Below, piece by piece: positions 4,592-7,727 of a stretch of 64,000 nucleotides of DNA. The translations under genes were made by a program, and so were the position numbers. Numbering within the stretch: the first letter of the stretch is position 1; the number at the start of each line of letters is the position of its first letter. The notes beneath the pieces were generated by a model. The model did not search any database. It saw only the letters and a list, made by a program, of their open reading frames with translations, and was not told where the DNA came from. Origin of the DNA: Phycisphaerae bacterium (GTDB taxonomy: Bacteria; Planctomycetota; Phycisphaerae; Phycisphaerales; SM1A02); the NCBI GenBank assembly GCA_018701395.1, contig JABIWU010000005.1, positions 1 through 64,000 on the forward strand, in the 5' to 3' direction.

Positions 4592-5277
4592 TGTTCTCTA
4601 AATTCCAACTTCGCAGAAGAGCTCCTGGTCTAAGTGCTTACCGAATTTTATTTTGGTGGACGTTTATGATTCGCTTAATGCATTTATTATTTCGTATTTT
4701 TTATCGACTTAGGTGTTCCGGTAGGGAATTAGTACCAAGGACAGGTCCACTTATTTTTGTTGCTAATCACCAATCAAATTTTGATCCTCCGATTATTGGT
4801 GCAGTAATTTACGATCGTCCATCGAAGGGAATCGCAAGAAATACACTTCTTGATTCGAAACTACTTGCCGCTTACATTAGTGCATTTGGAGTTATTTCAA
4901 TAAAGCGTGGAGAGAGTGACTTGGTTGCAATCAAAAAAGCTCTTAAAGAACTTGCAGCGGGGCGTTGCGTAATGATTTTTCCAGAAGGAACACGTACGCA
5001 AACAGGTGAGATGGGAGAATTTCAACGAGGATTTTGGTTGTTGCTTAAGAAGAGCAAGGCAACCGTTGTGCCAGTGGGCATTGATGGGGCTTTTGACGCA
5101 TATCCGATGGGATCGAGTCCAAAACTTCGAGGATGTATTGAAGTAATGGCCGGTGAATCGATGAATGCAGAGTCACTTCTTGAAATGGACGAGAAGGATG
5201 GAACAGCATACGTTCGTTCAAAAGTTGAATCACTCATGCTTCAGTGTAGAGAGAATATTAAAAAACGATCAAAATAG
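4588..5277 (+). CDS. plsC: 1-acyl-sn-glycerol-3-phosphate acyltransferase (PlsC family)
   Basis: This is a membrane-associated acyltransferase of the PlsC/LPLAT family, expected to acylate lysophosphatidic acid to phosphatidic acid. The catalytic HX4D motif is H61-QSNF-D66, and the substrate-binding FPEGTR box is at about 131-136. A hydrophobic segment near residues 18-40 could anchor it to the inner leaflet. It starts at an ATGATG pair inside the cmk stop, so it is translationally coupled. It converges on the TauE gene with a nine-base overlap. The acyl donor and exact lysolipid substrate are not readable from sequence. Confidence 0.92.
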   Translation: MMFSKFQLRRRAPGLSAYRILFWWTFMIRLMHLLFRIFYRLRCSGRELVPRTGPLIFVANHQSNFDPPIIGAVIYDRPSKGIARNTLLDSKLLAAYISAFGVISIKRGESDLVAIKKALKELAAGRCVMIFPEGTRTQTGEMGEFQRGFWLLLKKSKATVVPVGIDGAFDAYPMGSSPKLRGCIEVMAGESMNAESLLEMDEKDGTAYVRSKVESLMLQCRENIKKRSK

Positions 5278-6057
5278 AATTGGAATCGCTTTACTAAATA
5301 ATTTGTACGAAGCGAGTGCTACAAGAATGGCGAATATAACTCGTATGGTTTTATTAGGTAGAACATTTGTAAGTTTTGCCCCTAGCCAGCCACCAATAAG
5401 TGCGCCAGGGATAATTTGTGCTGCATATAATAAGGCGGTTAATCCACCGTTTTCTACATCTTGAAGTGTTAGATCTTTTACAGATGCGCCAACAATCGCA
5501 GTTACGAACATTATTGCAGATGAAGTGCCAATCGCCTTCTTTATTGGTAAAGAGCAAACACGATTTAGTAGAGGAACTTGAATTAAGCCTCCGCCAATTC
5601 CAAGAAGCCCAGAAACTGTCCCAGTAATTCCACCGGTTAAACCGAATCGAAACAGGGAGGTTTGTTTGCTTTGGACTTCTGCTTTCGAATTTTTATTTAC
5701 GAAACAAGAGATTTGATCCCAGAATACCCAAATCAAAAATAATGCAAAACTAAATTCAAGCCAAGCACCATTTATTGAATTACTAAACCACGCTGCAGCG
5801 CTAATACAGAGTAACGAAAGCGGGATGACTCTCCAAACAGCCCTCCACGATACATTCAAATTGTGCTGATGTTTTGCTGCAGATGAAATTGCGACTGCCG
5901 GGTTGACGGTCATGGCGATTGCTTGTGCTAGGTGTATTGACATATCTGGAATGAAAAAAAGCAACACTGGAATCATTATGACCGAGCCACCAATACCGAG
6001 TAATCCGCCAAGGGTTCCGGCGAGAATTCCAAGTGCAACAAACATAATAAATTCCAT
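5269..6057 (-). CDS. TauE/SafE-type sulfite/sulfonate exporter family membrane protein
   Basis: This is a polytopic membrane protein of the TauE/SafE (DUF81) family, whose characterised members move sulfite, sulfoacetate or other organosulfur anions. Two glycine-rich repeats are visible, GILAGTLGGLLGIGGSVIMIPVLL at the N-terminus and GITGTVSGLLGIGGGLIQVPLL in the middle, consistent with the duplicated 4+4 helix fold. The substrate is not predictable. The start is placed at the ATG at 6057 because a TATGAT -10 hexamer ends six bases upstream, implying a leaderless message. An in-frame ATG at 6072 would place the start inside that hexamer. It diverges from the KefB-type gene. Confidence 0.85.
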   Translation of the reverse strand: MEFIMFVALGILAGTLGGLLGIGGSVIMIPVLLFFIPDMSIHLAQAIAMTVNPAVAISSAAKHQHNLNVSWRAVWRVIPLSLLCISAAAWFSNSINGAWLEFSFALFLIWVFWDQISCFVNKNSKAEVQSKQTSLFRFGLTGGITGTVSGLLGIGGGLIQVPLLNRVCSLPIKKAIGTSSAIMFVTAIVGASVKDLTLQDVENGGLTALLYAAQIIPGALIGGWLGAKLTNVLPNKTIRVIFAILVALASYKLFSKAIPILF

Positions 6058-6063
6058 CCCCCC

Positions 6064-6079
6064 ATCATACATGTATGAT
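6064..6079. promoter_or_regulatory. Palindromic divergent promoter, back-to-back -10 boxes (TauE / KefB genes)
   Basis: ATCATACATGTATGAT is a perfect 16-bp palindrome. Each arm is a TATGAT hexamer on its own strand, with four bases between the arms. The minus-strand hexamer is six bases from the ATG at 6057, and the plus-strand hexamer is seven bases from the ATG at 6087. Transcripts starting the usual six to eight bases after the -10 would begin at or next to each start codon. No convincing -35 box was found on either side. Confidence 0.65.
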
Positions 6080-6086
6080 AGAGAGA

Positions 6087-7727
6087 ATGGAGTTTTGGCA
6101 TATTGTTGGAGACATAACGGTTTTACTCAGCGTCGCTGTGTTCTTAGGAATTCTTGCTGAAAAATTTGGTTTTAGTGGAATTGTTGGATATTTAGTTGCG
6201 GGTACACTCGTTGGCCCATCAATATTTGGCTGGGTTGCATCTGATGAGAAGACGATCGTTTCAATTGCAGAAATTGGTGTTTCATTATTACTTTTTACCA
6301 TCGGTCTGGAAGTTAACGGACAACGTTTAAAGCAACTCCTCGGAAGGGGTATGGGGATTGGTGCTTTGCAAGTGTTGCTTACTGGGGCTCTTGGTTATGC
6401 AATCACTAAATTGTTCGGAGAGAGTTACCAATCGGCACTTATTGTTGGTTCTATGGCTGCGCTAAGCTCAACAGCTGTTGTTTCAAGAGTATTACAAGAC
6501 AGAAGTGAACTTGATGCACCACATGGACGCCTTACGTTTAGTGTTCTGCTTGTACAAGATTTAGCAACCGTCCCGCTTATGATTCTTGTAGCATTTCTTC
6601 ATGAACGCCCTGAAGAATCTGCTTTAGTTGCTCAAGTAGGGACCGCTGGCGCGAAACTTGTAGTTCTATTTGTAGTTATTTTGTTGATTGGGGTTTTAGT
6701 TTTACCTAGATTTTTCGGTGCAGCGCTTATTCGACGTTCAAATGAATTTCCAGTTATTTTAGGGCTAGTAACGGCACTTTCTGCAATGTGGTTTGCAGAT
6801 GAATTAAATATGTCACCAGCACTTGGAGCGTTTATTGCAGGATTAATTTTAGCGGGGACTCCGTTTGCATCACAGGTTCGTGGTGATATGGCACCTCTAC
6901 GTTATATATTTTTGACACTGTTCTTTGCATGTACTGGAATGCTCGCAGATTTGCCATGGCTTATTGAATCTTACCATTGGCTTTGGACAATCGGGGTAGT
7001 GGTAGGCATAGTCATAGGTAAATCGACAATCGTTTGGCTAATCTCTATGGCGTTGAAACAACCAAGGCGAGTTTCGATTGCTGCGGGATTGTGTTTAGCG
7101 CAAATCGGTGAATTTAGTTTTGTAATTGGTGCAGAAGCGATGAATTTTGGTTTACTTAGCGACAACTTGTTTCAACTATTAATGAGTTCATCTTTGATAA
7201 CGCTTTTACTATCGCCATTCCTCATTACGAAATCTCGACCAATTGCAAAGTCGATAGATACTATTCTTGGAAGCGACGGGTCGCTTGAATTAAGCGATGA
7301 ATTTAATACAATTCAAAACCACGTTGTGATTATTGGGTATGGTGTTTCGGGAAGGAAAGTAGTAGCAGAACTGATTGAATCTGGCCAGCAAGTACTCGTT
7401 ATTGACATGGGGCCGGTCGGGGTGAATCAAGCAAAGATAGATGGGGCGCTCTCGCTTCTAGGTAACGCACAGCGAAGAGAAATCCTTGAACATGCGGGAA
7501 TTCGCTCTGCGAAGTTGCTTGTGTGCACTTTGCCAGATCACCGAGCATCGTCGCAAATAATTCAGCAAGTCAGGGCATTTGCACCTTCAATTCAAATTAT
7601 TGCAAGGGCGAGATACTCAATTCATGCAAAGCATTTGAAAGACTCTGGTGCAGATATCGTAGTTGACGAAGAAAAATGCGTAGGGGATTCAATTTCTAAA
7701 GAAACATTACAAAAAATTGGTTTATAA
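6087..7727 (+). CDS. KefB/YbaL-type cation:proton antiporter with TrkA-N domain
   Basis: This is a monovalent cation:proton antiporter-2 family protein. Its N-terminal Na+/H+ exchanger domain (about residues 1-385) has roughly a dozen hydrophobic segments, including the typical GYLVAGTLVGPS, SLLLFTIGLE, SSTAVVSRVL and ALGAFIAGLILAG. A C-terminal Rossmann TrkA-N domain starts at HVVIIGYGVSGRKVV and would bind NAD(H), usually to gate potassium efflux. No C-terminal TrkA-C domain is seen. The ATG at 6087 is chosen because it sits seven bases after a TATGAT -10 box; an ATG at 6075 lies inside that box. The stop overlaps the convergent putA stop in a GGTTTATAAACC palindrome. Confidence 0.9.
   Translation: MEFWHIVGDITVLLSVAVFLGILAEKFGFSGIVGYLVAGTLVGPSIFGWVASDEKTIVSIAEIGVSLLLFTIGLEVNGQRLKQLLGRGMGIGALQVLLTGALGYAITKLFGESYQSALIVGSMAALSSTAVVSRVLQDRSELDAPHGRLTFSVLLVQDLATVPLMILVAFLHERPEESALVAQVGTAGAKLVVLFVVILLIGVLVLPRFFGAALIRRSNEFPVILGLVTALSAMWFADELNMSPALGAFIAGLILAGTPFASQVRGDMAPLRYIFLTLFFACTGMLADLPWLIESYHWLWTIGVVVGIVIGKSTIVWLISMALKQPRRVSIAAGLCLAQIGEFSFVIGAEAMNFGLLSDNLFQLLMSSSLITLLLSPFLITKSRPIAKSIDTILGSDGSLELSDEFNTIQNHVVIIGYGVSGRKVVAELIESGQQVLVIDMGPVGVNQAKIDGALSLLGNAQRREILEHAGIRSAKLLVCTLPDHRASSQIIQQVRAFAPSIQIIARARYSIHAKHLKDSGADIVVDEEKCVGDSISKETLQKIGL

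Follow-up and report, generated by a model that had tools for sequence, protein, structure and literature searches.

How should a perfect palindrome that is built almost wholly of putative promoter elements be read? The window analysed here, 64,000 nt long, comes from a marine member of the Phycisphaerales (Planctomycetota), whose genome comprises 1.94 Mb in 102 contigs with a G+C content of ∼43% and has its nearest public records among MAGs of the same order. It contains the 16-bp palindrome ATCATACATGTATGAT between divergently transcribed genes of the TauE family and the KefB type. The first-pass annotation had described it as two opposed TATGAT hexamers, four bases apart and 6 and 7 nt from the start codons, and had concluded that the two genes should compete for polymerase in a built-in either/or switch. 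The sequence, coordinates and geometry were exact as described. The question is whether the site is such a switch, an operator, a chance palindrome, or two ordinary promoters lying close together.

The two genes and their starts

The features of the locus are listed in Table 1. The Pfam matches bear out the gene identities originally proposed, and the KefB-type protein also has an NCBIfam KefC/KefB-like match, although this is below the cut-off. The neighbouring genes encode a cytidylate kinase, an acyltransferase and a PutA-type protein. On the minus strand, the first base of the TauE-family ATG is 6057, while the ATG of the KefB-type gene occupies 6087–6089, with a probable leaderless start at 6087; the N-terminus of the KefB-type protein, ME/DFW, is conserved across the genus. 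In-frame upstream ATGs are present inside the palindrome, with first bases at 6072 (minus strand) and 6075 (plus strand), and were rejected as starts because they are not conserved among relatives in the genus.

Table 1. Coordinates of the genes and putative promoter elements at the palindrome locus (positions in the window)
Feature	Position	Strand	Remarks
TauE/SafE-family membrane protein, 262 aa, probable leaderless start 6057	5269..6057	-	PF01925, E 2e-49; start supported by orthologue N-termini
-35 position of the plus-strand promoter at a 17-bp spacer, ATTCCA, on TauE codons 1-3	6051..6056	+	not TTGACA-like
Perfect 16-bp palindrome	6064..6079	.	sequence given in text; single copy in genome; kept only in the sister species G028
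Probable -10 box TATGAT of the TauE-family gene, 6 nt (6058-6063) before ATG	6064..6069	-	conserved in genus
Spacer CATG, giving each -10 box a G immediately upstream	6070..6073	.	
Probable -10 box TATGAT of the KefB-type gene, 7 nt (6080-6086) before ATG	6074..6079	+	conserved in genus
KefB/KefC-like CPA2 cation/proton antiporter with TrkA-N domain, 546 aa	6087..7727	+	PF00999, E 3.4e-55; PF02254
-35 position of the minus-strand promoter, CTCCAT (minus strand), on KefB codons 1-2	6087..6092	-	not TTGACA-like

A genome-wide signature of leaderless genes

The occurrence of TANNNT was counted as a function of distance to the ATG for 1143 genes, the starts being those called by a home-made gene finder over 1.6 Mb of the genome (loci L035-L154). 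Against a background of ∼20 per position, 109 hexamers lie 6 nt and 58 lie 7 nt before the ATG, giving 167 where ∼40 would be expected (Poisson P ∼3e-50), and the divergent genes show the same peak. A G precedes 75 of these 167 boxes, compared with 206 of 806 positions at control distances. Shine–Dalgarno-like motifs are found at a minority of starts in the genome.

In the work of Zheng et al. (2011; PMC3160421), leaderless bacterial genes are those with a TANNNT ∼12 bp before the start. The genes described here have in common with those TA-led genes the TANNNT ∼12 nt before the start codon, the genome-wide positional peak and the lack of a conserved Shine–Dalgarno motif. They differ in their Phycisphaerales host, the word ‘Planctomycetes’ being absent from the main text of that study, and in the placing of two leaderless-type boxes back to back (PMC3160421). 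We take the peak at 6–7 nt to be the signature of leaderless genes, a spacing from box to ATG which would imply leaderless mRNAs, an implication that the first-pass annotation had left unmentioned. Both halves of the palindrome fit it. Each of the two genes has a TANNNT at the distance from which transcription is predicted to begin at the start codon, and the stretch of 6–8 nt that follows the box differs freely from genome to genome in the genus, with no conserved Shine–Dalgarno sequence; the GGGGGG that abuts the TauE ATG is not at Shine–Dalgarno distance.

Conservation of the boxes and of the palindrome

A complete divergent TauE/KefB pair is found in 11 genomes of the genus, the source genome included. 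In all 11, TATGAT or TATCAT lies 6–7 nt before the orthologous ATG on the KefB side, and a TANNNT (TATGAT, TAAGAT, TACGAT, TACCAT, TACAAT or TAAAAT) lies 6–8 nt before it on the TauE side. Together with the genome-wide peak, this conservation makes it very probable that the two hexamers are, as first suggested, the -10 boxes of both genes. The start-to-start distances in the 11 genomes are 30, 30, 61, 62, 62, 75, 90, 133, 143, 152 and 384 bp, where the two 30-bp values belong to the source genome (G000) and its sister species (G028; KefB 95% identical). The palindrome, whose conservation had been put forward as the test of the switch, is present in these two genomes only and absent from 9 of the 11 with the pair, where the individual boxes are conserved; the same architecture was found in no other genome of the 181 searched in the family.

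In the tree, the two species with the 30-bp pair form a clade with support of 100/100, grouped with relatives that have distances of 75 and 152 bp. The back-to-back arrangement is thus confined to a single small clade, and the simplest account of it is a shortening of the intergenic region. Since the boxes are kept in 11 of 11 genomes, and the palindrome and its spacing are confined to this clade, the conserved item would be one leaderless promoter per gene, with the palindrome a lineage-specific result of two close boxes. All 29 intergenic bases are identical in the two species, and the four-fold sites of both genes differ at 55 of 393; the chance of no intergenic change at the four-fold rate is ∼1%. 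This mildly favours selection on the segment as promoter DNA, although part of the identity could stem from a short divergence time.

Intergenic inverted repeats whose arms resemble GGGTCTGACCCC or AATAAACTCACCCCCGG were noticed between divergent genes at L109:9409-9501, at L104:98052-98145 and upstream of KefB in L012. These are possibly members of a dispersed family of short palindromic repeats that lengthens intergenic regions in the genus.

How the palindrome arises

Perfect 16-bp palindromes are common as a class in this genome, with 55 in 1.58 Mb against ∼28 expected from base composition, so that the palindrome alone carries little weight. What does go beyond chance, judged from the sequence comparisons, is the position of each box, at a 6–7 nt spacing that is over-represented genome-wide and conserved at both genes. 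The dyad arises because both boxes read TATGAT, have the favoured G in front of them and leave AT between them at the centre of the spacer. Two TATGAT boxes each preceded by G already yield a CNNG spacer, and the only remaining requirement is a self-complementary central dinucleotide, a one-in-four event for which no further cause is needed. A pattern search with N6/N6 spacing gave no match, because the site is N6/N7.

The fold of the region drew attention to an outer similarity flanking the palindrome, between ATGGAATTT and ATGGAGTTT, which encodes Met-Glu-Phe in both proteins. Because both proteins start with these residues, the opening nine coding bases of one gene (6049–6057) and of the other (6087–6095) make up an imperfect inverted repeat that encloses the palindrome. 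A hairpin or cruciform was considered and rejected, as the DNA fold of the palindrome region is no more stable than that of shuffled sequences (z -0.5).

Promoter geometry and competing explanations

We consider it highly probable that two ordinary back-to-back promoters with TANNNT-type -10 boxes drive leaderless mRNAs of the TauE-family and KefB-type genes. Each promoter would be of the housekeeping type and set by a -10 box 6–7 nt before the start codon, so that leaderless mRNAs are made in opposite directions. As the intergenic region of the source genome and its sister is just 29 bp, the boxes lie back to back, 4 bp apart. The predicted transcription starts are the two start codons themselves, 6057 (minus strand) and 6087 (plus strand), 30 bp apart. 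As had been anticipated, each -35 position falls within the opening codons of the gene on the other side, where neither hexamer resembles TTGACA; no -35 hexamer or sigma70-type -35/-10 pair is recognisable on either strand at the locus.

From the general properties of sigma70-type complexes, polymerase footprints at the two boxes would overlap, and simultaneous occupancy of both promoters is therefore unlikely. The predicted melted regions (∼-11 to +2), however, flank the centre of the palindrome and do not overlap. Opposed polymerases would exclude each other sterically and passively, and at ordinary promoter strength both genes would be transcribed stochastically and nearly independently.

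The almost complete overlap of the footprints that follows from the geometry would also suit an evolved either/or switch, in which polymerase competition at the opposed -10 boxes has been selected to make the two transporters mutually exclusive. The unchanged intergenic region in the sister species points the same way, and in Escherichia coli a bidirectional promoter that is strongly activated on one side can be repressed on the other; the basal activity of the five bidirectional promoters tested there was, however, too low for competition (PMC12825309). Exclusion without feedback would, moreover, give no lasting two-state behaviour. Close relatives keep both boxes and not the palindrome or its 4-bp spacing, which makes a dedicated switch unlikely, and the restriction of the architecture to two of the genomes searched in the family likewise argues against it. 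We regard a selected switch as very improbable: the proposal finds no support in a -35 hexamer, in operator-like recurrence or in conservation of the palindrome. A perfect dyad between divergent genes is also in the typical position of an operator, here one bound by a dimeric regulator of both transporter genes. Yet the whole genome has a single copy of the exact 16-mer, and sites with one or two mismatches lie elsewhere in the genus, being found at the TauE/KefB pair in the sister only. The two -10 boxes with their flanking G account for the dyad, and none of the adjacent genes named above encodes a regulator. The operator reading, which we hold to be very improbable, was rejected because the site is neither recurrent upstream of other genes nor conserved at orthologous loci beyond the sister.

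It could be argued instead that the palindrome has no promoter function and arose by chance, the genes being transcribed from elsewhere. The abundance of such palindromes, the lack of a consensus -35/-10 pair and a DNA hairpin no better than shuffles would all agree with this, but both boxes lie at the preferred leaderless distance of the genome and are kept in every one of the orthologous pairs, and we find a chance origin very unlikely. To return to the two ordinary promoters, weak-to-moderate and nearly independent leaderless transcription from each would be expected unless an activator or feedback is at work. Other divergent leaderless pairs in the genome have spacings that range from overlapping boxes to >100 bp, and the locus, a compact region of divergent leaderless promoters, is nothing out of the ordinary.

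Comparison with bidirectional promoters

The bidirectional promoters of Warman et al. have one shared -10 element and starts that are mostly 18, but also 10 or 23, bp apart (PMC12825309). For the five tested in E. coli, mutual exclusion was without effect at basal activity, and competition was seen only once one direction was substantially activated (PMC12825309). The palindrome locus is like these promoters in being symmetric promoter DNA between divergent genes, with overlapping polymerase footprints. It differs in having separate -10 boxes (6064–6069 and 6074–6079, which do not overlap) in place of a shared one, 4 bp apart, and predicted starts separated by 30 bp rather than ∼10, 18 or 23 bp (PMC12825309). 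As a result of the unshared boxes and the 30-bp distance, it lies outside the strict bidirectional-promoter class.

This genome does have candidates for that class, in the form of divergent pairs whose -10 boxes overlap and whose start codons are 18, 20, 23, 24 and 24 bp apart. Those at 20–24 bp are at L052:13365-13389, L052:16243-16267, L127:9541-9564 and L115:10760-10780. The sequence CATCCGTGTATGCTACATGGATG (L040:3686-3708, G000:C6; orthologues L166-L175) lies between the divergent genes for an ABC-transporter ATPase and for a protein of 795 aa that is probably secreted and has no Pfam match. An 18-bp interval separates their start codons, which share a single -10 box, TATGCTA; orthologous loci with exactly this interval are present in 10 of 13 genomes of the genus. 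The TATGCTA pair is a strong candidate, and on sequence grounds a better one than the palindrome locus, for a bidirectional promoter that is conserved and yields two leaderless mRNAs.

Across the genus, the 18-bp shared-box pattern is not enriched overall (19 matches, compared with 16 for the reversed control), even though one orthologous site is strongly conserved. The start-to-start distances of divergent pairs (n = 187) show no sharp peaks. It is possible, though we think it rather doubtful, that leaderless transcription is so common in the genus that divergent pairs can be split by -10 DNA alone (17–40 bp), where one shared or two abutting boxes set both start codons. The orientation of polymerase would then pick the mRNA at each initiation, and the start-codon spacing would report the promoter geometry.

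Implications

In the literature library searched, no earlier relevant report on leaderless genes in Planctomycetes/Planctomycetota was found, and in the planctomycete lineage analysed here the signature of such genes is strong. The locus also illustrates that a striking palindrome can come from two nearby conserved promoter boxes, rather than from a switch or an operator.
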